Assembly (NCBI RefSeq): GCF_035474595.1
Contig: NZ_DATIND010000019.1
Span: forward strand, 1-33,489
Reading direction: 5' to 3'
Length of the DNA: 33,489 bases
Origin: Longimicrobium sp.
GTDB lineage: Bacteria > Gemmatimonadota > Gemmatimonadetes > Longimicrobiales > Longimicrobiaceae
Under the pieces are notes generated by a model. The model saw only the letters and a program-made list of their open reading frames with translations, made no database searches and was not told where the DNA came from. The first letter of the stretch is position 1; the number at the start of each line of letters is the position of its first letter. Shown one piece after another: positions 11,830 to 32,938 of this stretch. Position numbers and translations under genes: made by a program.

Positions 11830-12312
11830 TCAGGATGACGGAGGTGCTGCAAGCCCGCCTTTCAGGGCCGGCCTGGCATCGAGCAACCATCGATGGACCC
11901 GCTCCAGAAGCGCCGAGACCGTACGCCGCGCCTTCTCCAGATCTTCCGGCTCCAACTCCTCCTCATCCCCATACAGCGCGGAATGGCGTCCGCCGCGAAT
12001 CCCCTGCATCGTATCGGCAATGCGCTCCAGGTCCTCGTCACCGAGCGCGCCGAGGGCGTAGAAACTCACATGATGGTGCCCCCCGACAGCCCCTCGCTGC
12101 CGGTACCCCGCCGCGCGGACGGCGGCGCTCGCCGCACGGAATGCCGCCTGGTAGACGTGGATGAACGCGCCCGCCACGCTCAGGCCGGGCACAGAGGCGT
12201 CCGCCCACTCGCGGAGCGCGGCACTCCAGATCGCCGCCACCTCGGCGTCGTCCGCGGGCACCGGCTCCAGATTGCGCGCCTCGATCAGGCGGTCGATGCG
12301 GTGCTGCCTCAT
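11830..12312 (-). CDS. HEPN-domain protein (putative toxin of HEPN/MNT pair)
   Basis: This 160-residue, all-helical protein fits the HEPN group found next to MNT nucleotidyltransferases, in a subtype resembling SAV_6107-like HEPN proteins (DASVPGLSVAGAFIHVYQAA, then AAGYRQRG and HHHVSFYAL). The putative RNase motif is R106-GG-R109-H110-SAL-Y114; it keeps an Arg and His and a downstream tyrosine, but is not the textbook R-N-x-x-x-H-x-Y. In known HEPN/MNT systems the HEPN protein is the RNase toxin and the partner inactivates it by adding AMP to a tyrosine; Tyr114 is the natural candidate. Its ATG overlaps the TGA of the partner gene (ATGA), so synthesis is coupled. Confidence 0.82.
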   Translation of the reverse strand: MRQHRIDRLIEARNLEPVPADDAEVAAIWSAALREWADASVPGLSVAGAFIHVYQAAFRAASAAVRAAGYRQRGAVGGHHHVSFYALGALGDEDLERIADTMQGIRGGRHSALYGDEEELEPEDLEKARRTVSALLERVHRWLLDARPALKGGLAAPPSS

Positions 12313-12929
12313 GCCGGCACCATTCCGAGCCGGTCCTCGTCGCCCACGATCCAGCGCTTGGGGCCGGCCAGGATGCGCCTGAGGACGGCGTTGCCCGCCG
12401 CGATCTGGCGGTCGAGCCGGTCGCGAGTGTAGCTCCGGATCTCCACCGGCCGCCCGAGCAGCACCGAGGCCCCGGCCACCTCGCGCCCCAGCCGCGCCTC
12501 CGACGCCTCATCGCCCACGACCAGGACGTCGATGTCGCTGTCGGCGCGCGCATCGCCCCGCGCGAACGAGCCGTAGACGAACGCCGCCTCGATCCCCTCC
12601 ACCCCCGCGATCGCCTCCTCCACCACCTCGGCGGGATCGGCGAAGTGGCGGATGAGCTGCCGCAGCCCCGCCCAGCCCGGGTGCGTCTCGGCGGTGCGGT
12701 AGAGCACGCGCCCGCCCGTCTCCTCCCGCTCGACCAGCCCGCGCCCCTCCAGCCGCCGCAGCTCGCGCGAGAGCGAGCTCATCGACAGCCCGGAGCGCCG
12801 CTGGAGGGCGCGCACGTGCTCCGGCTCGTCTCCGTGCAGCGCGAAGTGCAGCACCAGCCGCGCGAAGGCGGGCGATGCCAGCACTTCACCCAGGCCCGGA
12901 AATCCAGCGCTTTCTTCAGATCGAATCAT
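12309..12929 (-). CDS. MNT nucleotidyltransferase fused to a winged helix (putative antitoxin)
   Basis: In this 206-residue protein, residues 20-85 form a winged helix-turn-helix (LQRRSGLSMSSLSRELRRLE, then a wing GRGLVEREETGGRVLYR). Residues 115-206 form a minimal nucleotidyltransferase with the active-site pattern G120-S121-F-A-R-G and D132-x-D134. The family transfers a nucleotide onto a protein, in HEPN/MNT systems onto the HEPN partner. The attached DNA-binding domain and the palindrome over the promoter suggest that it also represses its own operon. The ATG at 12929 follows GGATGAAGA. It is the first gene of a two-gene operon. Confidence 0.88.
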   Translation of the reverse strand: MIRSEESAGFPGLGEVLASPAFARLVLHFALHGDEPEHVRALQRRSGLSMSSLSRELRRLEGRGLVEREETGGRVLYRTAETHPGWAGLRQLIRHFADPAEVVEEAIAGVEGIEAAFVYGSFARGDARADSDIDVLVVGDEASEARLGREVAGASVLLGRPVEIRSYTRDRLDRQIAAGNAVLRRILAGPKRWIVGDEDRLGMVPA

Positions 12930-15577: not shown

Positions 15578-15801
15578 TCGCGCGGTGACGGAGAGGTGAG
15601 GCGGACCGCACGGCACAGGTGTCGGGCGCGTGCAGCACCCGGGGCGCGTGCCCTGCGGCGTAAGTGTCTGAAAACGCGACGTTTCGCCGCGCCGCGAGGG
15701 AAAGCACGCGACGTGCAGTCGGGTTGCACCAACTCCCCTCCGCGTTCCGCTCGGGCCTCCTCCGCGGGTCCGCGCGGAACGCCCCACTTCTACCGAGTGC
15801 C

Positions 15802-16806
15802 ATGGCCGGACTTCCGACTTCCCCCGCACGCCCCCCCACCGTGCTGGTATGCGGCAACACGGAATGGCTCGCGCGTTCGTTCGAGAGCATCCTGGCGCCG
15901 TACGGCTGCACGGTGGCGCGGGCCTCCGACCACGACCAGGCCTGGGCACGCTTCGACGAGCTGCACCCCGACGTGGTGCTGCTGGAGGCGGAGCACGGGA
16001 TGGACGGTGTGGAGCCGCTCTGCCGCACGCTGCGGGCGCACCCGCGGCTGGGCTCCAGCACGCCGGTGCTGGTGGTGTCGGCGGGCGCCCTGTCGCGCGT
16101 GGACCGCCTGGCCGCCATGCGTGCCGGCGCGTGGGACGCGTTCGGGTTTCCGCTGGACCCCGAGGAGCTGGTGCTGAAGGTGCGCGCGCTGGCCGCGGTG
16201 CGCCGCGAGGTGGTGGAGGCCGAGGAGCGCGGGCTGCTGGACGCGCCCAGCGGGCTGTACAACGCGCGCGGGCTGGCGCGGCGGGCCCAGGAGATGGTGG
16301 CCGAGGCGTACCGCAACCAGCGTCCGCTGGCGTGCATCACCTTCCACGCGGAGCCGGATGGGCCCGAGGGCGCGGAGCGCGACGGCCGCGCCGACGCGCT
16401 GGCCGAGCTGCTGCGGCTGGCCGGGCGCACCTCGGACGTGATCGGGCGGCTGCACCGCGGCGAGTTCGCGGTGCTGGCGCCGGCCACGGGATGGGAGGGC
16501 GCCGAGCGGCTGGCCCGGCGCGTGTGCGGCACCGTGCAGCGCGAGCTGGAGCGCTCGGGCGCGGCGGAGGTGCGCGTGTACAGCGGGCGCTTCGCCATCG
16601 ACGGCGCGGGGCAGCCGCGGGTGCAGGCGGCCGACCTGCTGGCCAACGCCGCCGAGGACCTGCACGCGGCGCTCAGCGCGCTGGGCGGCAACGGGAACGG
16701 CAAGGGGAAGAAGAACGGCCAGGGGAACGGCAGCGCGCACGCCGACGCCCCGGCACCCCCGCCCGCCCAGGCCGCCACGCTCCCCGCGCCGCCGGCGGCC
16801 GCGTAG
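15802..16806 (+). CDS. Pseudo-receiver protein with degenerate GGDEF domain
   Basis: This 334-residue soluble protein has a receiver-like domain at about residues 13-130 and a GGDEF-like domain at about 145-295, followed by a disordered Gly/Asn/Lys and Ala/Pro tail. Both domains have lost key residues. The phosphoacceptor Asp is replaced by Glu62 (DVVLLEAEHGMDG), the conserved Lys by Phe116 (FGFPLDP), and GGDEF reads HRGEF (218-222). It should therefore neither be phosphorylated nor make c-di-GMP, and may act as a fixed-state scaffold or ligand-binding protein. It diverges from the export gene and lies next to the tyrosine kinase gene, which points to a role in exopolysaccharide control. ATG 15802 is the start of the homologous region. 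A terminator follows. Confidence 0.83.
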   Translation: MAGLPTSPARPPTVLVCGNTEWLARSFESILAPYGCTVARASDHDQAWARFDELHPDVVLLEAEHGMDGVEPLCRTLRAHPRLGSSTPVLVVSAGALSRVDRLAAMRAGAWDAFGFPLDPEELVLKVRALAAVRREVVEAEERGLLDAPSGLYNARGLARRAQEMVAEAYRNQRPLACITFHAEPDGPEGAERDGRADALAELLRLAGRTSDVIGRLHRGEFAVLAPATGWEGAERLARRVCGTVQRELERSGAAEVRVYSGRFAIDGAGQPRVQAADLLANAAEDLHAALSALGGNGNGKGKKNGQGNGSAHADAPAPPPAQAATLPAPPAAA

Positions 16807-19900: not shown

Positions 19901-20535
19901 GCTGTGGCCGCCCCACATCTTCCGGTGCGGGGGACGGCGCCGTTGCTGGCCCTTCGTGCCCCACGCCGGGGCGGAGCGGGCGCGACGGCTTTCCCGCCGA
20001 CTCTCGACAGGCCCTGTACAACACGGGATGCGGAGTTTGTTTGTCGCGAGGAGATCGGCCCTGCGGGCGCGAACCGGTCGGCGGCGCGTCCCCTTGCGGC
20101 GAGCGGAAAACCGGGGCCGGAGCGCACGTTTCGTTGCAATCGTGTAATGCCTCGGGGCACCCCGCATCGAGGCGGGCGGGGGATGACGGAACAATGTGCT
20201 TGACGGCTATCTGTTTCTGCTTCAACTTCTTGCGGCCGAACGACCCGCTCTCCGGCCCTCTGGTCTGCCTCTTGCTCCGGGGTCCCTTCGCTGACCCCTG
20301 GCGCGCCTTCCCGAGTGACCGCTCCCCTTTCCTTCTCCCGTGACCCCGCTGCTTTCGCGGGAGTCGGGATCGCGCAAAGGGAGAGATCCCTGCCGGGCGC
20401 CAGGCATGCGCCCGATGTTCGATCGGATACGGCGAATGCATTCTCCGGCGTCCCCGCAGCCGGACCGCGTTCATGGTGACCATCCCAACATCCTTCGTCC
20501 GGAGCTCGTCGTCCGGAGTCCACCGGGAGCCCGCG

Positions 20536-22038
20536 ATGCCCGATCCCGTGACCTCCACCGCCGTACCCGCGCCCGCCGAAGGCGCGGCCTCCATCTCCCT
20601 CCTGCTGGTCGAGGACGAGTACACGCTGCGCGACAGCTGCGCCAACGTGCTGCGGCTGGACGGCTACACGGTCACGGCGTGCGCCCACGGCCGCGAGGCG
20701 GTGCAGACGCTGGCGCGGCGCGCCTTCGACGTGGCGCTGGTGGACCTGTACCTGGACGACCTGTCGGGGCTGGAGGTGCTGGCGGCCTGCCTGCAGGCCA
20801 ACCCGCGCTGCCTGGTGGTGGTGATGACCGGCAGCCCCAGCGTGGACTCGAGCGTCGAGGCGCTGCGGCAGGGCGCGTGGGACTACCTGCCCAAGCCCTT
20901 CTCGGCCACCCACCTGCAGATCCTGGTGGGGCGCGCCGCCCGCGCGGTGGCCGAAGCGCGCGCCGAGGAGGCGCTGCGCTCGGCGGCCGAAAGCGGCGGC
21001 CCGCGGCAGAGCCACAGCCGCGCCATCACCCTGCTGGGGCGCTCGCCGGCCTTCGTGCGGGCGGTGGAGCTGGCCCGCCGGGTGGCGCAGACCGACGCCT
21101 CGGTGTTCATCACCGGCGAGAGCGGCACGGGCAAGGAGATGATCGCGCAGTTCATCCACTCCGAGAGCCGGCGCGCGCAGCGGGCCATGGTGGCGGTGAA
21201 CTGCGCCGCGCTTCCCGAGAGCCTGCTGGAGTCGGAGATGTTCGGCCACGTGAAGGGCGCCTTCACCGGCGCCATCCGCGACAAGGTGGGGCTGCTGGAG
21301 GCGGCCGACGGGGGCACGTTCTTCCTGGACGAGCTGACGGAGATGACGCAGACGATCCAGGCCAAGCTCCTGCGCGTGCTGCAGGACGGGATCGTGCGCC
21401 GGGTGGGAAGCGAGACCACCGACGCCACGGTGGACGTGCGGGTGATCGCCGCCACCAACCGCGACCCGTCCGAGGCCACCGACACCGGCGTGCTGCGGCG
21501 CGACCTGTACTACCGGCTGAGCGTGGTTCCCATCTACCTCCCGCCGCTGCGCGAGCGTCCGGAAGACGTGCCGCTGCTGGCCGAGCACTTCCTGGGCTTC
21601 TACTGGCGCCGCCACCGCGAGGCCGGGGCGCCGGCGCCGCGCCTGTCGCCCGCCGCGGTGTCGCTGCTGCAGGCGCGCCCCTGGCGCGGCAACGTGCGCG
21701 AGCTGCAGAACCTGATGGAGCACACGGTGGTGCTGGTGGCGCCCGGCGCCGAGGTGCACCCCGACGACATCCCCTTCCGCGACGACTCGCCGCGCGGCGG
21801 GCGGCCGCGCGCGGGCGCCGAGCCGCAGCCGTACGCGCTGGTGGGCGACGAGCCCTACCACAGCGCGCGCGACCGCGTGCTGGCCGAGTTCGAGCGGATG
21901 TACCTGATGTCGCTGGTGGAGCGCGCGGGGGCCAACATGTCGCGCGCGGCCAAGATCGCCGGCGTGGACCGCACCACGCTCTACCGGCTGATGGAAAAGC
22001 ACGGGCTGCATCGCGACACCGCGATCCGCGTGGACTGA
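20536..22038 (+). CDS. Sigma-54-dependent response regulator (NtrC family)
   Basis: This 500-residue protein has three domains. The receiver (about 20-135) has phosphoacceptor Asp70, Thr98 and Lys120, all intact. The AAA+ domain (about 165-400) has Walker A GESGTGKE (194-201), the sigma-54 contact loop GAFTGA (241-246) and Walker B FFLDEL (262-267). A Fis-type helix-turn-helix (NMSRAAKIAGVDRTTLYRLM) lies near the C-terminus. It should bind enhancer sites and activate RNA polymerase with sigma-54 when phosphorylated. The histidine kinase gene follows after 22 bases, so the pair is very likely cognate. By position it plays the part of PrsR in known PEP-CTERM systems, though orthology was not tested. 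ATG 20536 follows GGGAGC by five bases. Confidence 0.93.
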   Translation: MPDPVTSTAVPAPAEGAASISLLLVEDEYTLRDSCANVLRLDGYTVTACAHGREAVQTLARRAFDVALVDLYLDDLSGLEVLAACLQANPRCLVVVMTGSPSVDSSVEALRQGAWDYLPKPFSATHLQILVGRAARAVAEARAEEALRSAAESGGPRQSHSRAITLLGRSPAFVRAVELARRVAQTDASVFITGESGTGKEMIAQFIHSESRRAQRAMVAVNCAALPESLLESEMFGHVKGAFTGAIRDKVGLLEAADGGTFFLDELTEMTQTIQAKLLRVLQDGIVRRVGSETTDATVDVRVIAATNRDPSEATDTGVLRRDLYYRLSVVPIYLPPLRERPEDVPLLAEHFLGFYWRRHREAGAPAPRLSPAAVSLLQARPWRGNVRELQNLMEHTVVLVAPGAEVHPDDIPFRDDSPRGGRPRAGAEPQPYALVGDEPYHSARDRVLAEFERMYLMSLVERAGANMSRAAKIAGVDRTTLYRLMEKHGLHRDTAIRVD

Positions 22039-22060: not shown

Positions 22061-23065
22061 ATGGCGACCGCCGATCCGTCCGCGCCGGGAGAGCCCCTGG
22101 CCGCGGTATCGCACGCCGCGCGGGAGGCGGCCGCCGAAGCCGGCCGCGGCGGCGGCGACGCCGAGCTCCTGGCGGAGCTGGCCGCGCGGGTCGACTCCGA
22201 GTGCGCGCGGCCCGCCCCCGTTGCCCCCACCTACTCGCTGGTGCTGCTGGACCGGCTGCGCGCCGCCGTGGTGGAGCAGTGGCTGGCCGGCGGCGATCCG
22301 CCCCCTCCCGGCGACGCGGCCGGCGTGCTGGCGGCGTTCGACCGCGTGCGCGAGCAGCTGCTGCACCCCGAAGGCGCCCTCTCGCCGCTGGAGCCGCTGG
22401 CCGAGTTCGCGCACGACCTGCGCTCTCCGCTCACCTCCATCCTCTTCCTGGCCGGCGCGCTCCGCGAGGGGCAGAGCGGCGCGCTTTCCGACGCACAGCG
22501 GCGGCAGGTGGGGATCATCTACAGCGCCGCGCTGGGAATGGTGTCGCTGGTGAGCAACACCATCGAGCTGAACCGGGGCAGCGAGGGCGGCGAGCGCTCG
22601 CCGATGTCGCTGCGGGGGATGTTCGAGTCGCTGCGCGACGTGGTGGCGCCGCTGGCCGAGGAGAAGCAGGTAGAGGTGCGGCTCTGCATCCCGGCCGACG
22701 ACCACCGCATGGGCGACCCCGTGGCGCTCAGCCGCGTGCTGCTGAACCTGGCGGTGAACGCCCTGCACTCCACCGACCAGGGGTGGGTGGAGCTGGCGGC
22801 CGAGCCCCAGGGCGAGGCGGCGATGCGCTTCTGGGTGCGCGACACCGGACGCGGGATCGAGCCCGAGGCGCTGGACCCGGTGGGCGGGCTGTACCGGCCG
22901 CGCCCGCACGCGCGCGGCTACGGCTTCTCCGGCACGGGCCTGGGCCTCGGCATCTGCCGCAAGCTGCTGGCGCAGATGGGCGGCGAGCTGGGCGTGGACA
23001 GCAACGGCGGCCAGGGCACCGCGTTCTGGTTCACCCTCCACCTTCCCCCCGCTCCGCCGCCGTAG
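22061..23065 (+). CDS. Soluble histidine kinase, partner of the sigma-54 regulator
   Basis: This 334-residue kinase has no membrane segment. The N-terminal 100 residues are helical and unassigned and may be a cytosolic sensor. The HisKA part contains His118 in EFAHDLRSPLTSIL. The ATPase part has the N-box around Asn233 (NLAVNAL), G1 DTGRG (261-265) and G2 GTGLGLG (291-297). AGAAGGGGG just before the ATG supports the start. Co-transcription with the regulator is likely. In exosortase-bearing proteobacteria the analogous kinase PrsK is usually a membrane protein with a GAF domain, so this is a different layout. Confidence 0.9.
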   Translation: MATADPSAPGEPLAAVSHAAREAAAEAGRGGGDAELLAELAARVDSECARPAPVAPTYSLVLLDRLRAAVVEQWLAGGDPPPPGDAAGVLAAFDRVREQLLHPEGALSPLEPLAEFAHDLRSPLTSILFLAGALREGQSGALSDAQRRQVGIIYSAALGMVSLVSNTIELNRGSEGGERSPMSLRGMFESLRDVVAPLAEEKQVEVRLCIPADDHRMGDPVALSRVLLNLAVNALHSTDQGWVELAAEPQGEAAMRFWVRDTGRGIEPEALDPVGGLYRPRPHARGYGFSGTGLGLGICRKLLAQMGGELGVDSNGGQGTAFWFTLHLPPAPPP

Positions 23066-23452: not shown

Positions 23453-23594
23453 CCGATTCTGTTGGTCGAGGTTCGATATCCATCCTCCCGAATTCGGGAA
23501 ATCCGGGGGCGCGCTGCGTCGGCGGAGCTCGCGGAGATGTGCCTCCGCCGACTTCGCTGAATCCGCATGGTGTCTGCGGTTTGCCTCGATCAGA

Positions 23595-23618
23595 CCTGCG
23601 CGGGCAGGCGGCTTTTTT
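23595..23618 (+). terminator. Terminator downstream of the kinase region
   Basis: A short stem (CCTGC, GCGG, GCAGG) is followed by CGGC and six T's. It probably ends transcripts from the regulator/kinase pair. Confidence 0.5.
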
Positions 23619-23678
23619 CCTCCGGATCCTCCGCGCCCTTCGTAAGAGACCATCCGTTCTCTCCTGTGCCGGATGGAC

Positions 23679-23719
23679 GTGTGGCGGGGGCGCGCCACGG
23701 GTGTGGAGCCCCGCCACAC
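23679..23719. promoter_or_regulatory. 11-bp inverted repeat upstream of the sugar transferase operon
   Basis: GTGTGGCGGGG (23679-23689) and CCCCGCCACAC (23709-23719) are perfect complements 19 bases apart, and inside them GGTGTGG (23700-23706) pairs with CCACACC (23714-23720). It could be an operator or an alternative hairpin. Confidence 0.4.
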
Positions 23720-23736
23720 CTGTGGGTGGGCCACCA

Positions 23737-23743
23737 CGCAACA
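23737..23743. promoter_or_regulatory. Single half-site CGCAACA
   Basis: This half-site is identical to one arm of the palindromes upstream of the export and kinase genes. The other arm matches at only two of seven positions. It lies about 105 bp upstream of the predicted start from the promoter at 23814. Taken alone it could be chance. Confidence 0.3.
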
Positions 23744-23813
23744 GCGGGCCCCGCCGCGTTCCCATCATCCCCCAAGTCGTTTGCAATCAACAGGTTGGCG
23801 GAAAGGCACGGCC

Positions 23814-23829
23814 GCGCACGGGCATTGCC
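23814..23829 (+). promoter_or_regulatory. Sigma-54-like promoter of the sugar transferase / exosortase operon
   Basis: GCGCACG-GGCA-TTGCC matches five of seven -24 positions and all of TTGC, with CG in place of the GG. It shares the block GGCATTGC at the same spacing with the element at 31158 ahead of the second PEP-CTERM gene. Start of transcription would be near 23840, about 48 bases before the GTG. Confidence 0.42.
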
Positions 23830-23887
23830 TTGTCCCATCCCGCTGTCGCAGGCCCTCCCCGGAACCCCTTCGCCGGAGCTCCCTGCC

Positions 23888-24664
23888 GTGCCCCCCCAGA
23901 TCGCCACCCGACGCCGGATGCCAACCCGGACGACCTTCTCCTTTCCGCGCCTTGCCGCGGCCGACGAGCTGATGCTGGCTCCGCCGGCGCCCGGGATCTC
24001 CATCCCGCGCCCGCTGGAAGGGATCCGCCTCGACATCGACCCCATCCGCCTGGTGAACGTGGCCGCCGCGCTGCTGCTGCTGGTGCTGGCCGCGCCGGTG
24101 ATGGCCGTGATCGCGCTGCTGGTGAAGCTGACCTCGCCGGGCCCCGTGGTGTTCCGCCAGGTGCGCGTGGGCGTGGACCGCCGCTCGCCGGGAAGCGGGT
24201 CGCGCTGGCGCCGCACCTACGACTACGGCGGCCGCCTCTTCACCATGTACAAGTTCCGCACGATGTCGGCGGCGTCGGACGACCGCCTGCAGGTGTGGGC
24301 CCAGCCCGACGACCCGCGGGTGACCGCGCTGGGGCGCGTGCTGCGCAAGTACCGCCTGGACGAGCTGCCGCAGCTGGTGAACGTGCTGCGCGGCGACATG
24401 AACCTGGTGGGGCCGCGCCCCGAGCAGCCCCGCATCTTCGCCGAGCTGCGCGACCAGGTGGACCGCTACGCCGAGCGCCAGCGCGTTCTTCCCGGCATCA
24501 CCGGGTGGGCGCAGGTGCAGCAGCCGTACGACCGCTCGGTGGACGACGTGCGCGGCAAGGTGCGGCTGGACCTGGAGTACATCGCCACGCGCTCGGTGCG
24601 GCGCGACGTGCAGATCCTGATGCGTACCGTGCCGGCCGTGCTGCTGCGCCGCGGCGGGTGGTAG
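23888..24664 (+). CDS. Sugar transferase (phosphoglycosyl transferase, initiating step)
   Basis: The 258-residue protein is of the monotopic phosphoglycosyl transferase family (bacterial sugar transferase, WcaJ/EpsL-like). One hydrophobic segment (LVNVAAALLLLVLAAPVMAV) is followed by the cytosolic catalytic domain with FTMYKFRTM, the Asp-Glu pair in YRLDELPQLVNVLRGDMNLV, GPRPE and GITGWAQV. It should transfer a sugar phosphate onto undecaprenyl phosphate to start repeat-unit assembly. The GTG start at 23888 is chosen because GGAG lies nine bases upstream; ATG 23918, which would give 248 residues, has no such site. It is the first gene of a tightly packed operon with the exosortase. Confidence 0.9.
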   Translation: MPPQIATRRRMPTRTTFSFPRLAAADELMLAPPAPGISIPRPLEGIRLDIDPIRLVNVAAALLLLVLAAPVMAVIALLVKLTSPGPVVFRQVRVGVDRRSPGSGSRWRRTYDYGGRLFTMYKFRTMSAASDDRLQVWAQPDDPRVTALGRVLRKYRLDELPQLVNVLRGDMNLVGPRPEQPRIFAELRDQVDRYAERQRVLPGITGWAQVQQPYDRSVDDVRGKVRLDLEYIATRSVRRDVQILMRTVPAVLLRRGGW

Positions 24665-24666
24665 CC

Positions 24667-25551
24667 GTGACCGGGCTGGCCCTTCCCGCCCGAGCCGGCG
24701 CCCGCGCCCGGCTGGCCGCTCCCGCGGCGGCCGCGGCCCCGCTGGTGGCCGCGGCCGCCTTCGCGCTGCTCTACTGGCGCCCGGCGCTCACGCTGGTGCG
24801 GGACTGGTGGAGCGACCCCAACGCCGGCCACGGGCTGCTGCTGGGCCCGGTGGCGCTCTGGCTGGCCTGGCGCGCCGGCGTGGTTCCCCGCCCCGCCCCG
24901 CGGCACCGGGCGGGCATCGCGCTTCTTACGCTGGCCGTGGCCATGCGCTGGCTCTCGGGGCTGGCGGCCGAGCTCTTCACCATGCGCCTGTCGCTGCTCC
25001 TGGCCGCGGCCGCGCTGGTGGTGTTCGCCTGGGGATGGGGGCAGCTGAAGCGGTGGTGGCTTCCCGCGGGGCTGCTCCTGCTCTGCATTCCCCTTCCCGC
25101 CGTGGTCACCGCGTCGCTGGCGCTGCCGCTGCAGTTCAAGGCCTCGGCGCTGGGCGCGGCCATGCTGGAGTGGCGCGGGATCCCGGTGCGCCTGGCGGGG
25201 AACGTCATCTCCCTTCCCGGGCGCAGCCTGTTCGTGACCGAGGCGTGCAGCGGGCTGCGCTCGCTGGCCGCGCTCCTGGCCATCGCCCTGCTCACCGGCG
25301 GGCTGTGGCTGCGCACCGCGGGCGCGCGGGCGGTGCTGCTGGCCGCGGCGCTGCCGGTGGCGGTGGTGCTGAACGGCGTGCGCGTGTTCCTCACCGGCTT
25401 CCTGGTGGTGTTCGTGGACCCGCGCCTGGGCGACGGCTTCATGCACCTGACCGAGGGGTGGCTCATCTACCTGGCCGCGCTGGGGATCCTGGCGCTGATG
25501 GCCTCGGGGCTCACCCGCGTGGAGCGCCGCCTGGCGCCGGTGCCCGCGTGA
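24667..25551 (+). CDS. Exosortase (PEP-CTERM sorting transpeptidase)
   Basis: This 294-residue inner-membrane protein has about eight membrane segments and the three exosortase catalytic residues: Cys194 in TEACSGLRSL, Arg239 in LNGVRV and His260 in MHLTEGW. The family removes the C-terminal PEP-CTERM signal from exported proteins and attaches them, probably to a polysaccharide or other carrier. The GTG start lies two bases after the sugar transferase stop codon, and the end overlaps the EpsI-family gene as GTGA. Two PEP-CTERM proteins are encoded in this window (26771 and 31301). Its subclass cannot be set by eye. Confidence 0.92.
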   Translation: MTGLALPARAGARARLAAPAAAAAPLVAAAAFALLYWRPALTLVRDWWSDPNAGHGLLLGPVALWLAWRAGVVPRPAPRHRAGIALLTLAVAMRWLSGLAAELFTMRLSLLLAAAALVVFAWGWGQLKRWWLPAGLLLLCIPLPAVVTASLALPLQFKASALGAAMLEWRGIPVRLAGNVISLPGRSLFVTEACSGLRSLAALLAIALLTGGLWLRTAGARAVLLAAALPVAVVLNGVRVFLTGFLVVFVDPRLGDGFMHLTEGWLIYLAALGILALMASGLTRVERRLAPVPA

Positions 25552-26198
25552 GCGCCCGCGCCTGGTGGGCGCCTGCCGCCGTGCTGGCGGCCGGGGCGGT
25601 GCTGGTGGCCGCGGGCGGGCGGCAGCGCTCGCTTCCGCTGCGCGCGCCGCTGGCCGAGACGGTGCCGGCGCGCGTGGGCCCCTGGGAGGGCCGCGACCGC
25701 ACCATCGCCGACGAGGAGCGCCGGGTGGCGGGGATGGACGACTACCTGATGCGCGCGTACGTGCCGGCGGGGGTGGCCGGGGCCGCCACGGCCTTCTCGC
25801 TGTACGTGGGCTACTACCGCAGCCAGGCGCAGGGACGCACCATCCACTCGCCGAAGAACTGCCTGCCGGGCGCGGGGTGGGAGGCGCTGACCACCGGGCG
25901 CATGCGCATCGCCACCCAGGCCGGCACGGTGGAGGTGAACCGCGCGCTGCTGCAGAACGCGGGGCGGCGCGCGCTGGTGCTGTACTGGTACCAGGGGCGG
26001 GGGCGGGTGACGGCCGACGAGTACGCGGTGAAGTGGAACCTCCTGCGCGACGCGGCGCTCAGCCGCCGCACCGAGGAGGCGCTGGTCCGGGTGATCGTGC
26101 CGGTCGACGGCACCGAGGCCCGGGCCCAGGAAGTGGCGGTACAGGCGGCCCGCGCGGCCGTTCCCGCCGTGGCGCGCGCGCTCCCCCAGCCCGGGTGA
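25548..26198 (+). CDS. EpsI-family exosortase-associated protein
   Basis: The 216-residue protein belongs to the EpsI family (DUF3485), which accompanies or is fused to exosortases. An N-terminal hydrophobic segment (APAAVLAAGAVLVAAGG) anchors it, and the rest is probably periplasmic. The family hallmark HSPKNCLPGAGW sits near residue 103, after VGYYRSQAQGRTI; WYQGRGR and the EYAVKWNLLRDA segment also fit. Its biochemical role is not established; context ties it to exosortase-linked polysaccharide. The GTG start overlaps the exosortase stop codon, so translation is coupled. Confidence 0.88.
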   Translation: MSARAWWAPAAVLAAGAVLVAAGGRQRSLPLRAPLAETVPARVGPWEGRDRTIADEERRVAGMDDYLMRAYVPAGVAGAATAFSLYVGYYRSQAQGRTIHSPKNCLPGAGWEALTTGRMRIATQAGTVEVNRALLQNAGRRALVLYWYQGRGRVTADEYAVKWNLLRDAALSRRTEEALVRVIVPVDGTEARAQEVAVQAARAAVPAVARALPQPG

Positions 26199-26249: not shown

Positions 26250-26774
26250 ATGGACGAGTTGAACCGGCGGCCGGTGCTGCTGGCCGTGTACCCCGTGGCC
26301 GCGCTGCTCGTGCTGGTGCCCACCATCGAGGTGGTCGCCGGCGCCTGGCCGTTCCAGACCGGCGAGCTGTCGTGGCGCTTCGGCGTGGGCGGCATCGTGC
26401 TGAAAACGCTGGTCACGCCGCTGCTGGGGATCATGCTGGCCATGGTGGCCGGGGTGGCGCTGGAACACCGCCGCACGGTGCGCGCGCTGGCCGCGGTCTG
26501 CCTGGCGATCGCGGTGGGCACCGTGCTGGTGGCCGCCATGTTCACGCTGGACTTCCTGCAGCTGCGGTCGATCGTGGACCCGCGGATGAAGGGCGGGATG
26601 ACCGTGGCCTCGGGCACGGCGCTGCTGATGGCGGCGCTGATCGCCCCCGCGGCGGCGGCGCTGGGTGCAGGGGGATGGAAGGCTACGCGCCGGGCCGGTA
26701 CGGTGCGCGCGCGGAAGGGCGCTCGCGCGGACGGAGTGCTGGTGAGCCCTCGACTGAAGGAGAACGCCACATGA
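26250..26774 (+). CDS. Four-helix membrane protein of the exosortase operon
   Basis: I do not recognise this 174-residue protein. Four hydrophobic segments are visible (PVLLAVYPVAALLVLVPTIE, then GGIVLKTLVTPLLGIMLAMV, AVCLAIAVGTVLVAAMFTL and GTALLMAALIAPAAAALGAG), followed by a basic, probably disordered cytosolic tail. AAGGAG and GAGG sit upstream of the ATG. The stop overlaps the ATG of the PEP-CTERM gene (ATGA), which suggests that the two are made in fixed ratio. It might help export or sorting of that protein; this is inference from position only. Confidence 0.75.
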   Translation: MDELNRRPVLLAVYPVAALLVLVPTIEVVAGAWPFQTGELSWRFGVGGIVLKTLVTPLLGIMLAMVAGVALEHRRTVRALAAVCLAIAVGTVLVAAMFTLDFLQLRSIVDPRMKGGMTVASGTALLMAALIAPAAAALGAGGWKATRRAGTVRARKGARADGVLVSPRLKENAT

Positions 26775-27487
26775 AACGCTTTCGTGCCCGCGCGCTGATG
26801 CTCGCGGCCGGGGCGGCGCTGGTGATGCTTCCCGCGCAGGCCCACGCGGTAAGCTTCCTGGGGGAGAAGTTCATTGCCCTGGGCGGATCGGTCACGGTTC
26901 GCTACATCGGCAGCAGTGCCGCGTACTTCAACACCATGCAGTGGTTCCGCAACGGCTACGGCGCGGTGAACTACACCGGCAACGTGGTCGACTACACCAA
27001 CTCCGGCACCGTCGACGACCTGTTCTACAGCCAGAACGGGTACCGGCTGGACGGCACGCCCGTGCCCGGCAGCCCCACGGGAAGCGTGGTGGTGCTGGGC
27101 GGGGGCTACTCGTTCGGCGTGGGCGAGGAGGTGCTGCTGGGCCTGTTCGTGCACAACGAGTACGAGGAGGGGCCGGGCGGCGCCAACTGGAAGACCCAGG
27201 ACGGCGACGACTACACCTACTTCTCCGGCCCGCTGTCGCGGAACAAGGACAGCCGCTTCCACCTGTCCATCACCGACCTGGGCGGCGGGACCTTCCAGTT
27301 CCGCGGCGGCTGGGAAGACACGGTGGACGGCGGCGACGAGGACTACAACGATCTCGAGTTCGAGATCTCCGGAGTCACCGTCACGCCCGAGCCGGTGTCG
27401 ATGATGCTGATGGCGACGGGCCTTGCCGGCCTGGGGGGCTTCGGCTTCCGCCGCCGCCGCTCGAACCGCACGCTCACGCCGGCCTGA
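26771..27487 (+). CDS. PEP-CTERM sorting domain protein (DUF4114-like)
   Basis: This 238-residue exported protein has an N-terminal signal peptide (MKRFRARALMLAAGAALVM, cut probably after AHA) and a C-terminal sorting signal: P206-E-P208 followed by a hydrophobic helix (MMLMATGLAGLGGFGF) and the basic end RRRRSN. The middle resembles DUF4114 domains: LFVHNEYEEG, WKTQDGDDYTYFS and GWEDTVDGGDEDYNDLEFEI, an acidic stretch that may bind calcium. It is the likely local substrate of the exosortase, being the last gene of its operon, and should end up on the cell surface or in the exopolysaccharide. AAGGAG precedes the ATG, and a terminator follows. Confidence 0.93.
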   Translation: MKRFRARALMLAAGAALVMLPAQAHAVSFLGEKFIALGGSVTVRYIGSSAAYFNTMQWFRNGYGAVNYTGNVVDYTNSGTVDDLFYSQNGYRLDGTPVPGSPTGSVVVLGGGYSFGVGEEVLLGLFVHNEYEEGPGGANWKTQDGDDYTYFSGPLSRNKDSRFHLSITDLGGGTFQFRGGWEDTVDGGDEDYNDLEFEISGVTVTPEPVSMMLMATGLAGLGGFGFRRRRSNRTLTPA

Positions 27488-27780: not shown

Positions 27781-27837
27781 ACGCCGCGGAGTACGGTGAC
27801 GGCGCGTGATGGACGGTCGCGCCACACATCCGGTTGC

Positions 27838-27853
27838 GGGAAAACGACTTGCG
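27838..27853 (+). promoter_or_regulatory. Sigma-54-like promoter candidate of the PAS-GGDEF-EAL gene
   Basis: GGGAAAA-CGAC-TTGCG has GG and GC exactly ten bases apart and a full TTGC; the rest of the -24 box is poor. The predicted start of transcription is near 27864, about 105 bases before the ATG. Confidence 0.38.
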
Positions 27854-27968
27854 CGGCCCGGAATCTTTCGTGGGCCGAAGGCCCGGACTTGCCTGCTTCT
27901 TGCCCCCTCGCTGGCGGCGGTCCACCCGGCGATTTCCGCCGGCCCCTTCCTACCCCGCACGGGAGCCC

Positions 27969-30056
27969 ATGAGTGTGCACGCCGACTTCTCGGCCGGGCC
28001 GATCGGGCCCGCTCCGGGCGTGACCGCGGATACCGGCGGACACCCCGTGGAGTGCGCCCCGGAAGGGCTGGACTACCGCGGCGTGTTTCTCGGCAGCCCG
28101 CACGCCGTGCTGGCGGTGGACAGCTGGGGACGCGTGACCGCGGCCAACCCGGCGTGCCGCGACCTGTGGCACGCGCCGGCGGGGTCGCTGATCGACGCGC
28201 CCTTCCTGTCGCTGGTGTGGCCCGAGGACCGCGCGCGCGCCCAGGAGGCGCTCGACGCCGCCCGCGCCGGCGCCGCCCCCGAGCTGCCGCTGGCGCTGGC
28301 CCGCCGCGACGGCAACCGCCAGGAGACCACCGCGCGGCTGGTGCTGGTGGACGGCTGCACCCTGCTCTACCTGTGCGCCGTCCCCGAGCTGGCCGCCGGG
28401 CTGGCCGCCGACGCGGTGCTGCGCGAGATCGTGGACGGGAGCGCCGAGCTCTTCTTCTACCACCAGGACGGAGCCGGCGTGCTGGAGTACGTGTCGCCCG
28501 GCGTGTCGCGGGTGCTGGGGTACGCGCCCGAAGAGCTGGTGGGCACCCCGCTGGAGCGCCTCGCCGAGCCCTGCCCGGCGGGACCCGCCCCGGAAGCGGC
28601 GGCCGAGAACGGCGCCTCGCACATCCACGCCTTCCGCGACCGTCGCGGCCGCACCGTGTACCTGGAGCTGATCGAGGCGCCCGTGCGCCGCGGCAGCGGC
28701 GACGCCGGGGTGCAGGGGCTGGCGCGCGACGTGACGCGGCAGAAGCGGCTCGAGGAGCAGCTGGTGCACGAGGCGCTGCACGACCCGCTCACCGGGCTTC
28801 CCAACCGCGCGCTCTTCCTGGACCGCCTGCAGCACACCGCCCGCGCCTCCACCCGCGACCCCGGGGCGCTCTTCGCGATCCTGCTGGTGGACGTGGACGA
28901 CTTCAAGCACATCAACGACCGGATGGGGCACGAGCTGGGCGACCGCGTGCTGGTGGACATCGCCGGGCGGCTGCAGCAGTGCGTGCGCCCCGGCGACACC
29001 GTGTGCCGCCTGGGCGGCGACGAGTTCACCGTGCTGCTGCACTCCATCGGCGACCCCGGCGACGCCACCCGCGTGGCCGACCGCATCCGCGCCGAGCTGG
29101 TGTCGCCCTTCCGCCTCAGCCCGCACGAGCTGTTCGTGACCACCAGCATCGGCATCGCGGTGAGCGGCACGGCGGGGAACGACCTGGCCGAGCTGATGCG
29201 CCAGGCCGACACCGCGCTGTACCGCGCCAAGGCCGGCGGCAAGGCGCGCTACGAGGTGTTCGACCGCGAGATGCACGAGAGCACGCTGGCGCGCCTGCAG
29301 CTGGAGAGCGACCTGCGCACCGCGGTGCGCGGCGGCGGCCTGAGCCTGCAGTACCAGCCGGTGATCTCGATGGAGACGGGGCTCATCTCCTCGTTCGAGG
29401 CGCTGGTGCGCTGGCGCCACCCCTCGCGGGGAACGCTGGAGGCGCGGCACTTCGTTCCCGTGGCCGAGGACACCGGGCTGGTGGGGGCCATCGACCGCTG
29501 GGTGCTGCGCGAGGCCTGCCGCCAGCTGCACGCCTGGCAGCGCCAGTTCGGCGAGCGCTCGCCGCGGGTGAGCGTGAACGTCTCGGCGCGCGAGCTCCTC
29601 TCGCACGACGGCGTGGAGCACCTGCGCAAGGTGCTGGCGGAAACCGGCGCCGAGCCGTCGCTGCTGCGGCTGGAAGTGCCCGAGTCGGTGCTGGCCGACT
29701 CGCGGGTGGAGGAGGTGCTGCGCGCGCTGCGCGGGCTGGGCGTGGTGGTGCAGGTGGACCAGTACGGCACCGTGGGCTCCACCCCCGCGTCGCTCAGGCG
29801 GCTGGAGGTGGAGGCGGTGAAGGTGCACCGCTCGGTGCTGCAGCAGGAGGCGGGCGACCCCGAGGTGCTGCGCGCCATCGTGAGCCTGGCGCACGCGCTG
29901 CACCTGGTGGTGGTGGTGGGCGGGGTGGAGACCGACGAGCAGATGACGCGGCTGCGGTCGATGGGGTGCGACTTCGTGCAGGGGTTCTTCCTCTGCGGCC
30001 CCGTGGACGCCGAGGAGGCCCGGCGGATGATGGTGACGGAGAAGCACGCGGCTTGA
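27969..30056 (+). CDS. PAS-PAS-GGDEF-EAL protein with degenerate EAL domain
   Basis: This 695-residue soluble protein has two PAS-like sensor domains (about 35-135 and 148-258), a GGDEF domain (about 265-430) and an EAL domain (about 440-690). The cyclase part looks active: GGDEF at 349-353 and the inhibitory site Arg340-x-x-Asp343 are intact. The EAL domain keeps the EAL residues (477-479) and the LEVPES glutamate but has lost others. The DDFG motif reads DQYG (597-600), the KxD aspartate is His620, and the base of AEGVE is Gly651. It probably makes c-di-GMP but does not break it down; the EAL part may only bind the nucleotide. GGGAG precedes the ATG by three bases. Its place next to the exosortase operon suggests control of matrix production. 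Confidence 0.88.
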   Translation: MSVHADFSAGPIGPAPGVTADTGGHPVECAPEGLDYRGVFLGSPHAVLAVDSWGRVTAANPACRDLWHAPAGSLIDAPFLSLVWPEDRARAQEALDAARAGAAPELPLALARRDGNRQETTARLVLVDGCTLLYLCAVPELAAGLAADAVLREIVDGSAELFFYHQDGAGVLEYVSPGVSRVLGYAPEELVGTPLERLAEPCPAGPAPEAAAENGASHIHAFRDRRGRTVYLELIEAPVRRGSGDAGVQGLARDVTRQKRLEEQLVHEALHDPLTGLPNRALFLDRLQHTARASTRDPGALFAILLVDVDDFKHINDRMGHELGDRVLVDIAGRLQQCVRPGDTVCRLGGDEFTVLLHSIGDPGDATRVADRIRAELVSPFRLSPHELFVTTSIGIAVSGTAGNDLAELMRQADTALYRAKAGGKARYEVFDREMHESTLARLQLESDLRTAVRGGGLSLQYQPVISMETGLISSFEALVRWRHPSRGTLEARHFVPVAEDTGLVGAIDRWVLREACRQLHAWQRQFGERSPRVSVNVSARELLSHDGVEHLRKVLAETGAEPSLLRLEVPESVLADSRVEEVLRALRGLGVVVQVDQYGTVGSTPASLRRLEVEAVKVHRSVLQQEAGDPEVLRAIVSLAHALHLVVVVGGVETDEQMTRLRSMGCDFVQGFFLCGPVDAEEARRMMVTEKHAA

Positions 30057-30137: not shown

Positions 30138-30153
30138 TGGCGCGGGCCTTGCT
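30138..30153 (+). promoter_or_regulatory. Near-consensus sigma-54 promoter upstream of the helical protein gene
   Basis: TGGCGCG-GGCC-TTGCT agrees with TGGCACG-N4-TTGC[A/T] at 11 of 12 fixed positions, with GG and GC ten bases apart. It is the best match seen in the window. Start of transcription would be near 30164, about 160 bases before the ATG at 30324. No palindrome of the TGTTGCG type was found upstream of it. Confidence 0.62.
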
Positions 30154-30323
30154 ACGTATCGACGGCGCACTCCCCCCGAAACCCCGCCTCCCCTCCGCGT
30201 TTGCGGCCCTTCGAGGCCACGACGGGCCGGGAAGGATCGAAAGTTTTGCAACTCTCTTGCGGGACCGCCGACTCCGGCGTTTCTTTCCCCGACTCCACCC
30301 CCACGACCTCGACGAGGCGTTCA

Positions 30324-30797
30324 ATGAACCCCATCCGCCTGCACATCCTCGAGCGGGAGATCGAGAGCCTCTGCACGCTGGCGCTCGAGACCGCCGACGA
30401 TCTGGAATCGCGCTCCCCGGGGGCCGACGGCGCCGACGCCGCCGTGCTGGCCCAGGCGGTGGCGCACCTGGCGCTGAAGGTGTCGTACCTGCTCTGGCGC
30501 TTCGGGCGCCGCGTGAGCGACCGCTACGCCTCGGCCGAGGCCGAGAGCCTGCTGAACCGGCTGGGGCTTACCGAGGCCTCGCCGCTGGCGCCCAACCACA
30601 TGGCGCCCTTCGCCGACCTGCTCACGCTGTCCAGCGGCGAGCTGCTGCGCTCGGTGGACGCGGGGATGATGACGGTGACGGTGCGCGGGGTCACGCGCTC
30701 GCTGCGTCCGGTGGTGGCCGCGCTGGCGCGCGTGGCCGCCGAGCTGGGCGCCGGGAGCGGCGCCGAGCGCCCCCTGGCCGGCGCCGCCGTAGCCTGA
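30324..30797 (+). CDS. Helical protein of unknown function
   Basis: I do not recognise this 157-residue protein. It is predominantly helical and amphipathic (LHILEREIESLCTLALETAD, VLAQAVAHLALKVSYLLWRF, ESLLNRLGLTEASPL, a strand-like MMTVTVRGVT, and a final helix), without a signal peptide or clear membrane segment, so it should be a small cytosolic protein. GAGG lies eight bases before the ATG. It stands alone between the PAS-GGDEF-EAL gene and a terminator, under the best sigma-54-like promoter of the window. That makes it a candidate new member of the exopolysaccharide/exosortase system; it could be a partner or adaptor of the nearby kinases or cyclase. Confidence 0.72.
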   Translation: MNPIRLHILEREIESLCTLALETADDLESRSPGADGADAAVLAQAVAHLALKVSYLLWRFGRRVSDRYASAEAESLLNRLGLTEASPLAPNHMAPFADLLTLSSGELLRSVDAGMMTVTVRGVTRSLRPVVAALARVAAELGAGSGAERPLAGAAVA

Positions 30798-30819
30798 TCC
30801 CCGCCGGCAGATGGAACGA

Positions 30820-30853
30820 GCCGCCGCCGCGCACCACGCGCGGCGGCGGCTTT
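30820..30853 (+). terminator. Terminator of the helical protein gene
   Basis: A perfect 13-bp stem (GCCGCCGCCGCGC and its complement) with a 5-base loop and a TTT tail lies 22 bases after the stop codon. Confidence 0.85.
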
Positions 30854-30895
30854 CTGCCGTCCGGCATCGCCGCTCGCGTCGAGATTCCCGAAGTC

Positions 30896-30957: not shown

Positions 30958-31032
30958 TGCCCGGGGGTGTCGACCCGGTCGCGCCACGGCTGATGCGGCG
31001 GCGCAACGGCGGTGCGGGCGCACCACGACCAG

Positions 31033-31050
31033 TGTTGCGGGCGGCCCACA
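31033..31050. promoter_or_regulatory. Imperfect enhancer-type site upstream of the second PEP-CTERM gene
   Basis: TGTTGCG-GGCG-GCCCACA keeps one arm perfectly (7/7) and the other at 4/7. Its centre is about 142 bp upstream of the start predicted from the element at 31158. Confidence 0.42.
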
Positions 31051-31157
31051 AGCGTGCGCGATCCAGGGCCCGCCCGGTTTTCCGACGATCTTCACAACCT
31101 GTTGCAATTGAAGCACATCCGTGCGATCTGAACGAGGGCATGGGAACACTACGCGCG

Positions 31158-31173
31158 GGGCGCGGGCATTGCG
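31158..31173 (+). promoter_or_regulatory. Sigma-54-like promoter of the second PEP-CTERM gene
   Basis: GGGCGCG-GGCA-TTGCG has GG and GC ten bases apart, five of seven -24 positions and a full TTGC. It shares the block GGCATTGC with the element at 23814. The start of transcription would be near 31184, about 117 bases before the ATG. Confidence 0.5.
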
Positions 31174-31300: not shown

Positions 31301-32074
31301 ATGCGCAGGAAAGTCGTAGTCGCGGCGGTGCTCGCGCTCAGCGCGGCCACTGCCCACCCGGCCCACGCCAGCCCAGGGTATCGTGAGTGGATGAACGTCT
31401 GCGGAGCCGCGCTCCCGGGCCTCACCACCTGCGCGTCCGTGAAGCTGCAGGTCGTGGGCAACAACGTGACCCTCTGGGTGAAGAACCTGTCGGGGCTCTA
31501 CGGTTCCTACCAGAACTTCGTCTTCACCTCGATCTCGTTCTTCAACGCGAACGCGGCGAACGGCATCCCCGACGCGGTCGAGGGGAACGTCACCACCATG
31601 ACGGGCCCGTACCGCACCTCGAACGCCAGCAACCCGCCGCCCTCGTGGGCCGTCGTGAACAACGGCGGCGCGGGCGGAACGTTCGGCCTGGACTTCGACG
31701 CCGGGGTGAACGGGAACGACGGCTCAATCGCCAGCAGCTGCGGCAACATCCTTCCAGGGGGCAGCAACAACCTGTGGATGACGCCCACCTGCGGGTCGGG
31801 GAACGTGACCGACGGGGGCCCGGACTTCGGCTGGGTGACCATGACCTTCAGCATGACCGGGGCGTGGAACCTGGACGCGACCGACACCCAGATCCAGATC
31901 CACGCGCAGAGCGACCAGGGTTCGGTGAAGTGCACGACGGGCGTGGACTGCGACCCGACGAGCACCACGCCGGAGCCGGTGACGCTGGCGCTGGTGGGCA
32001 CGGGGCTGGCCGGGCTGGCCGGCGCGTACCGCCGCCGCCGCCGCAACGGCGGCGAGGGCGAAACGCCTGCCTGA
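31301..32074 (+). CDS. PEP-CTERM sorting domain protein, cysteine-containing
   Basis: This 257-residue exported protein has a signal peptide (MRRKVVVAAVLALSAATAH, cut probably after AHA) and a C-terminal sorting signal: P224-E-P226, hydrophobic LALVGTGLAGLAGA and basic RRRRRN. The mature part is beta-rich and Asn/Gly/Thr-rich, without a family I can name, and has six cysteines (VCGAALPGLTTC, SSCG, PTCGSG, KCTTGVDCD) that probably form disulfides after export. It should be processed by the exosortase at 24667 and held at the surface or in the matrix. GGAGG lies eight bases before the ATG. It is transcribed alone, with its own sigma-54-like promoter and terminator. Confidence 0.92.
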   Translation: MRRKVVVAAVLALSAATAHPAHASPGYREWMNVCGAALPGLTTCASVKLQVVGNNVTLWVKNLSGLYGSYQNFVFTSISFFNANAANGIPDAVEGNVTTMTGPYRTSNASNPPPSWAVVNNGGAGGTFGLDFDAGVNGNDGSIASSCGNILPGGSNNLWMTPTCGSGNVTDGGPDFGWVTMTFSMTGAWNLDATDTQIQIHAQSDQGSVKCTTGVDCDPTSTTPEPVTLALVGTGLAGLAGAYRRRRRNGGEGETPA

Positions 32075-32200: not shown

Positions 32201-32938
32201 ATGTCCGACGAAGTCCGTGCTCCCGCGGTACCCGTGTTCCACCTGGGGGCCGCGGACCCCGCCGGGCCCCCGCCGCTTCCCCGCCCCGCGCCCGACGCGG
32301 AGGCGCAGCTTTCCTCCTTTCTTGCCCACGAGCTGACCACCCCGGTGAGCACGCTGGTGGGGCTGGTGCACCTGCTGGCCGAGGAGCGGCTGGCCGGGCG
32401 CGCCGGCGACCTGGCCGAGCGCGCGCTGGAGGCGGCGGCCGAGGTGTCGCGCACCGTGCACGAGCTCCGGGCGCTTCCCGGCGGGATGCTGCCCGAGGAC
32501 GTGGATGCCGCCCAGGCCGCCGCCGAGGCGGTGCGCGGCGTTCCGTGCCCGCCGGGCGTGACCCTCACGGTGGACGCGCCGCTCCCCGGCGAGCCGGGCG
32601 GGGTGCGGGGGCACCAGGCGCTGCTGGCGCGGGCGATCCGCAACCTGGTGCTGAACGCGGTGCAGGCGGTGGGCCCCGCCGGCTCGGTGGGGGTCACGGT
32701 GCGCGCCGCGGGCGACCGGGTGCGCATCTCGGTGTGGGACGACGGGCCGGGGGTGGCGCCGGAGCACCGGGCCGGGCTCTTCACGCGGCCGTTCACCACG
32801 CGGCCGGGCGGGAGCGGGCTGGGGCTCCTGCTGGTGCGCCAGGTGGTCGAGGGGGTGCACGGCGGCACGGTGTCGCTCCGCCCCCGCGCGCCGAAGGGAT
32901 CCATCTTCCACATCGAGCTGCCGCGCGATCCGGGCTGA
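32201..32938 (+). CDS. Orphan soluble histidine kinase
   Basis: This 245-residue protein is a minimal kinase: a Pro/Ala-rich N-terminus, a HisKA part with His43 in SSFLAHELTTPVSTL, and an ATPase part with Asn152 (NLVLNAVQ), G1 DDGPG (180-184) and G2 GSGLG (204-208). No sensor or membrane segment is present, and no response regulator lies beside it. It resembles the kinase at 22061 in lacking a membrane sensor, so both may act on the sigma-54 regulator; this is inference. The ATG at 32201 has no clear ribosome binding site. TTGCA at 32176-32180 resembles a -12 box, but no GG is found at the right distance. Confidence 0.85.
   Translation: MSDEVRAPAVPVFHLGAADPAGPPPLPRPAPDAEAQLSSFLAHELTTPVSTLVGLVHLLAEERLAGRAGDLAERALEAAAEVSRTVHELRALPGGMLPEDVDAAQAAAEAVRGVPCPPGVTLTVDAPLPGEPGGVRGHQALLARAIRNLVLNAVQAVGPAGSVGVTVRAAGDRVRISVWDDGPGVAPEHRAGLFTRPFTTRPGGSGLGLLLVRQVVEGVHGGTVSLRPRAPKGSIFHIELPRDPG

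Follow-up and report, generated by a model that had tools for sequence, protein, structure and literature searches.

An orphan 157-residue helical protein of Longimicrobium and its probable place in a sigma-54 PEP-CTERM regulon

A sigma-54 regulon that includes PEP-CTERM genes is probably real in the Gemmatimonadota, and a 157-residue open reading frame (ORF) at an exosortase locus of Longimicrobium sp. is probably a member of it. The initial annotation had proposed such a regulon from the sequence of the locus. The proposal gains probability from three lines of evidence, namely a conserved sigma-54-type site before the ORF, a twin of this site before the adjacent PEP-CTERM gene, and a sigma-54 activator linked to the exosortase genes. 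The family to which the 157-residue protein belongs is a Longimicrobiaceae-restricted orphan, as judged from the sequence searches described below.

Locus and candidate activator

The window, i.e. the whole stretch of 33,489 nucleotides that was analyzed, is the complete contig G000:C19 of a 6.57-Mb genome (G000). Its relevant features are the following.

20473 to 22038, + strand: NtrC-type response regulator with GAFTGA loop and Walker A motif, PrsR-like, below the TIGR02915 cut-off
22061 to 23065, + strand: histidine kinase adjoining the regulator
23567 to 24664, + strand: exopolysaccharide sugar transferase, TIGR03025/TIGR03013-like, below the cut-offs
24751 to 25503, + strand: exosortase EpsH domain (PF09721)
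25575 to 26174, + strand: DUF3485 (EpsI-like) domain, residues 257-456 of ORF 24807-26195
26372 to 27487, + strand: second PEP-CTERM gene, tail at 27383-27457 (18 bits, below the cut-off)
27834 to 30056, + strand: PAS-PAS-GGDEF-EAL protein (Pfam/NCBIfam)
30138 to 30153, + strand: putative sigma-54-type -24/-12 element TGGCGCGGGCCTTGCT, by consensus match and conservation in the related genome G008
30324 to 30797, + strand: gene of the 157-residue orphan helical protein (157 codons), by coding pattern, homologues and model
30818 to 30852, + strand: terminator-like hairpin (15 bp, GC) with a short run of T behind it, from the fold of 30796-30870
31007 to 31060, strand undefined: 54-nt block near-identical in G008; its part 31017 to 31051 (35 nt), identical without a break, is a candidate activator binding site
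31159 to 31172, + strand: second putative sigma-54-type core GGCGCGGGCATTGC, before the PEP-CTERM gene and conserved in G008
31301 to 32074, + strand: PEP-CTERM protein gene, 257 amino acids (Pfam/NCBIfam)
32201 to 32938, + strand: second histidine kinase

The 157-residue ORF was described in the initial annotation as a lone gene for a helical protein between the PAS-GGDEF-EAL and PEP-CTERM genes. This arrangement was recovered with ORF 30324-30797, with both neighbors assigned by Pfam/NCBIfam and with a structural model at pLDDT 83. The DUF3485 domain at 25575-26174 is presumably linked to EpsI. A receiver protein with a weak GGDEF match is encoded at 15664-16806, upstream of the regulator-kinase pair, and is a second c-di-GMP-type gene of the locus alongside the PAS-GGDEF-EAL gene. 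On the minus strand, ORF 12309-12929 encodes an ArsR-type helix-turn-helix and, after it, a stretch that resembles the nucleotidyltransferase MntA; neither match reaches its NCBIfam cut-off.

The regulator at 20473-22038 carries the motifs GESGTGKE and GAFTGA. From these motifs, alongside the TIGR02915 match, we take it to be of NtrC type. Against the PrsR model TIGR02915 it scored 347.2 bits, short of the 502.6 required, and was outscored by other regulators of the genome. No PrsR equivalog above the TIGR02915 cut-off was found in any of the 10 genomes of the genus. The regulator may nevertheless work like PrsR, though it fails the PrsR cut-off. Its identity to the regulator in the exosortase operon of G018, a genome of a different genus, is 71%, compared with 40-47% for six other GAFTGA regulators. 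The syntenic orthologue in G008 shares 90% identity and reads GSFTGA. The genome encodes an rpoN gene along with this GAFTGA-type activator.

Exosortase (PF09721) was detected in 3 of 21 Longimicrobiaceae genomes (G000, G008 and G018), and a related NtrC-type activator is present at the exosortase loci of all three. The regulator-kinase pair lies beside exosortase/polysaccharide genes both in the window and in G018:C44. In the latter (L072, 2820-7567) the order is NtrC regulator, kinase, a 319-residue ORF and exosortase, a gene order that suggests a conserved exosortase operon in the Longimicrobiaceae.

Sigma-54-type sites before the orphan gene and PEP-CTERM genes

The consensus of the sigma-54 -24/-12 element is TGGCACGN4TTGCW. 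The element TGGCGCGGGCCTTGCT has the right GG/GC spacing (10 bases) and a single deviation, and it is the sole exact match to TGGCRCGN4TTGCW in the window, where 0.06 matches were expected; the near-consensus character claimed for it was thus upheld. At least one exact match to TGGCRCGN4TTGCW occurred in 5 of 100 window shuffles. With the looser pattern TGGCNCGN4TTGCW and one mismatch permitted, two matches were present in the window compared with 1.86 expected, which is not unusual. Because about two one-mismatch matches are expected per window, the consensus match of the 30138 site is weak evidence by itself. Conservation in comparison with G008, and not the consensus match alone, decides that the site exceeds chance. 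In the alignment of the leader between the two genomes, 161 of 241 columns are identical and the leader is otherwise diverged. Its longest unbroken conserved run of 18 nt covers the 30138 site, and a run of 18 nt was reached in 25 of 20,000 column shuffles. In the G008 copy of the element, C replaces T at the final position. The leader is long, with 185 nt from 30139 to the ATG of the ORF. On these grounds the predicted sigma-54 site at 30138 is very probably functional.

In the next intergenic region, the alignment of G000 and G008 contains a second unbroken run, GGGCGCGGGCATTGCG, with a core that starts at 31159, 142 nt before the ATG of the PEP-CTERM gene. The core GGCGCGGGCMTTGC occurs exactly twice in the 6.57-Mb genome, once before the 157-residue ORF and once before the PEP-CTERM gene (31159). 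G008 also has exactly two copies, in the two corresponding intergenic regions. A reversed-pattern control for GGCGCGGGCMTTGC also gave two occurrences in each of the two genomes. Two copies per genome is the chance level; that in both genomes the two lie at orthologous promoters no more than about 1 kb apart is, from the sequence comparison, not chance. Among the remaining eight genomes of the genus, GGCGCGGGCMTTGC was found once in G005 and once in G009, each time inside a predicted reading frame, and none of 100 window shuffles contained two copies.

The block at 31017-31051 lies 107 nt upstream of the 31159 site and is far more conserved than its surroundings. It contains an imperfect 17-bp dyad, TTGCGGGC-G-GCCCACAA, and could be an activator binding site. 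No Rfam family was found in 31007-31060 or elsewhere in the window. A TGTTGCGGG-like stretch common to this block and the G008 orthologue of the PEP-CTERM gene on G000:C25 was noticed by eye only.

Sigma-54-like sites were then scanned for in the 200 nt before eight PEP-CTERM genes of G000, G008 and G018. These genes come from a set of 11 matches, from which three with low scores (14.2, 13.5 and 13.4 bits) had been excluded. Sites with at most two mismatches precede four of the eight genes and sites with at most three mismatches precede six; in neither case did any of 1000 dinucleotide shuffles yield as many. Without the two G008 orthologues, the numbers are 3 of 6 with at most two mismatches (0 of 1000 shuffles) and 4 of 6 with at most three (1 of 1000 shuffles). 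Two PEP-CTERM genes of G018 have the sites TGGCACGGCCGCTGCT and TGGTACGGCGAGTGCT, each 65 nt before the ATG. The 16-mer TGGTATCGGCGTTGCT is identical in the PEP-CTERM gene on G000:C25 (L075) and its G008 orthologue (L074), 113/114 nt before the ATG. For the second PEP-CTERM gene of the window and the gene on G018:C233, no site with at most three mismatches was found in the 200 nt upstream. A comparison of the upstream regions by k-mers and dyads yielded no upstream activator site before 30138, no clear counterpart of the 31017-31051 block before the 157-residue ORF and no motif common to the upstream regions of all sites. The paired conserved sites in Longimicrobium and the sites before PEP-CTERM genes of another genus suggest an extension of sigma-54 control over exosortase substrates into the Gemmatimonadota.

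Two further observations concern the arrangement of these genes. The G008 orthologue of the C25 gene is located on the exosortase contig of G008. On G018:C73, the adjoining PEP-CTERM genes L077 and L080 have identical C-terminal tails, and both carry a common conserved block some 90-140 nt upstream of their sigma-54-like sites.

Family and structure of the 157-residue protein

The frame that contains 30324-30797 has a GC3 of 0.92. The ORF is 87% identical and syntenic to its G008 counterpart with a dN/dS of 0.34, and by this measure it is under purifying selection. The hairpin behind the ORF is strong, with a folding energy of -52.3 kcal/mol (z -5.4) for 30796-30870, and a similar hairpin is found in G008.

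The protein had been called unrecognized, and it stayed so: no credible sequence family was found for the ORF or its homologues in Pfam, NCBIfam, PHROGs or PADLOC, with best scores of E 0.098 (Pfam) and E 0.071 (PHROG). A PDB profile search gave no matches for the 157-residue protein. Plasmid searches gave none for the window protein or the G011 homologue, and phage searches gave none for the G011 homologue and E ~3 or worse for the G010 homologue. In viral contigs, 0 of 58 pattern stretches matched the family. In a scan of genome contigs, the single protein matched 0 of 595 stretches and the five-row alignment matched 3 of 88.

Homologues are present in 5 of 21 Longimicrobiaceae genomes: G000, G008, G003 (45% identity), G010 (32%) and G011 (23%). 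Weak matches in G007 (E 0.0097, 76 positions) and in G009 and G042 (E 0.004-0.008) were left out of this count. Across the phylum, homologues were found in at least 3 of 395 genomes at E ≤0.001, a lower bound because at most nine candidates were scored per genome and G010 and G011 went unmatched. The homologue in G003 sits between a gene for a PLP-dependent enzyme and a tRNA-binding gene, that in G010 lies near an aldose epimerase gene, and that in G011 overlaps a PLP decarboxylase gene with guaA on the other side. In the 300 nt upstream of these three copies, no site with at most two mismatches was found; G010 has two with three mismatches. No exosortase match was found in G003, G010 or G011, whose genomes are 72-86% complete, and no homologue was found in G018, although it has an exosortase. 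Exosortase is therefore present in two of the five homologue-bearing genomes, and a homologue in two of the three exosortase genomes.

The initial annotation had considered the protein specific to exosortase loci, with homologues that would always neighbor them. This was not supported, since only two of the five homologues lie at an exosortase locus, the other three have unrelated neighbors and belong to genomes in which exosortase gave no match, and G018 has no homologue. A wide spread of homologues away from exosortase loci had been named as evidence against the idea; three of five are indeed away from such loci, but with the phylum count given above the family is not widespread. The three homologues without exosortase and the lack of one in G018 indicate that the family is not tied to exosortase, whereas the copy in G000 and G008, from its location, is. 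The unrelated neighborhoods of the other three copies would also fit a family of general Longimicrobiaceae accessory proteins, in which case presence at the exosortase locus would be uninformative on the exosortase system. We consider this unlikely, as the family is patchy and the strong site is found only at the exosortase-locus copies, so that the gene is here apparently under the regulon.

By eye, the protein has no signal peptide or membrane segment. The helical character attributed to it was supported by AlphaFold2 prediction of the protein alone, which gave a helical bundle. Using a four-row alignment, the mean pLDDT was 83.3 (window protein) and 82.6 (G011 protein), and the models place a short beta hairpin or meander between four main helices and a last helix. 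Foldseek against the PDB returned nothing at E ≤0.001 for either model. The top match of the G011 model was the HEPN protein 2hsb (E 0.067, probability 0.96), and HEPN/HepT entries recur for the window model (Z ~6.5-7.9). The best VIA-align Z values were 9.2 (rmsd 4.2, 111 residues) and 9.1 (rmsd 3.0, 100 residues), the level given for unrelated bundles. The top viral fold match of the G011 homologue was A0A516KPP1 (E 1.7e-3, 21% identity). The sequence AHLALK in the second helix had raised the idea of Hpt-type phosphotransfer, which was dropped, as the histidine is not conserved in G010 and G011.

The HEPN matches would fit a non-cleaving protein with a degenerate HEPN fold whose binding partner is RNA or a nucleotidyltransferase. 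However, their E-values exceed 0.001, and designed bundles score equally high. The HEPN catalytic motif is R-x(4-6)-H. Among the five proteins it is absent in G000 and G008 and occurs at unaligned places in the other three, and no credible PADLOC, Pfam or PHROG family supports the assignment. Because the fold match is at a generic level and R-x(4-6)-H is not conserved, the protein was not filed as HEPN. The model predicts a helical bundle and a hairpin, a fold that is at most HEPN-like, and we regard the degenerate HEPN reading as quite unlikely. A HEPN-like family with the pattern LLWP...R...LG...SPL...RN..EH, absent from the libraries searched, appears to resemble the protein and is an unproven lead.

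A cytosolic export chaperone in the manner of FliS, a bundle that holds the co-regulated PEP-CTERM precursor until export, would agree with the probable co-regulation and with the FliS entries that recur among the structural matches (Z 6.8-7.7). These Z values are again those of unrelated bundles, three of the five homologues occur in genomes without an exosortase match, and G018 has PEP-CTERM genes yet no homologue, which makes a chaperone very unlikely.

Proposed role and relation to known systems

There is little probability that the 30138 site is a chance match or relic and that transcription of the gene comes by read-through of the GGDEF-EAL gene on the same strand or from an ordinary promoter in the 267-nt gap between them: the expected number of one-mismatch matches and the failure to find an upstream activator site agree with it, but the element is conserved without a break in a diverged leader and has an exact twin before the next gene in both G000 and G008 and nowhere else in either.

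Under sigma-54 control, the 157-residue ORF and the adjacent PEP-CTERM gene are probably switched on together with the surface-sorting machinery. From their adjacency, the kinase at 22061 would phosphorylate the NtrC-type regulator at 20473. The regulator would then drive open-complex formation by the RpoN polymerase at 30138 and 31159, a step suggested by the shared conserved core, the GAFTGA loop and the rpoN gene. The exported PEP-CTERM protein and the cytosolic helical-bundle protein would be co-produced, and the latter would contact proteins in the cytoplasm as an adaptor or modulator of the exopolysaccharide/exosortase program. Since the family is Longimicrobiaceae-restricted and has other members outside exosortase loci, we infer that the protein was recruited into the regulon and does not belong to the core of the sorting machinery. 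Adaptor or modulator is the best guess because there is no enzyme motif, no family, and recruitment from a lineage-restricted pool. On balance, the gene appears to be a sigma-54 single-gene unit, co-regulated with the PEP-CTERM gene, whose product is a recruited cytosolic adaptor or modulator and not an enzyme.

More tentatively, and with considerable doubt, a Longimicrobiaceae-only protein may have been captured by a non-proteobacterial sigma-54 PEP-CTERM regulon as a dedicated cytosolic partner that couples the kinase/NtrC regulator or the exopolysaccharide machinery to export. If true, this would be a kind of regulon member that we know from no described exosortase system. The twin sites define a regulon that is small and open to testing and has an orphan cytosolic protein among its members, and they offer an entry to what exosortase systems need inside the cell. 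In the open-licence literature we found nothing on PEP-CTERM in Longimicrobium; other print may cover it.

As in FliS-type flagellin chaperones, a small helical bundle is placed in a regulon with an exported protein; unlike FliS, no sequence relation was found and the structural match is at background level. With the HEPN superfamily (AF_0298, HepT, AbiV) the protein shares a helical bundle of similar size and a weak structural match, but it lacks a conserved R-x(4-6)-H and has a beta hairpin before the last helix, and the match is at the level of generic bundles.

The closest known system is the proteobacterial PEP-CTERM box/PrsK-PrsR-RpoN regulon. Haft et al. (2006; PMC1569441) reported the sigma-54 PEP-CTERM box DNA motif from Proteobacteria alone, with the activator motif 1 of the PEP-CTERM/PrsK-PrsR regulon about 63 nt before the sigma-54 motif. 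In Aquincola, transcription of pepA was shown to depend on RpoN (PMC9850573). The Longimicrobium locus resembles this regulon in the sigma-54 element before single-gene PEP-CTERM units and in the genes for an NtrC-type regulator and a kinase beside exosortase and polysaccharide genes. It differs in that the host belongs to the Gemmatimonadota, that the regulator scores below the PrsR cut-off, and that the predicted regulon here includes a non-PEP-CTERM gene whose product is apparently cytosolic.
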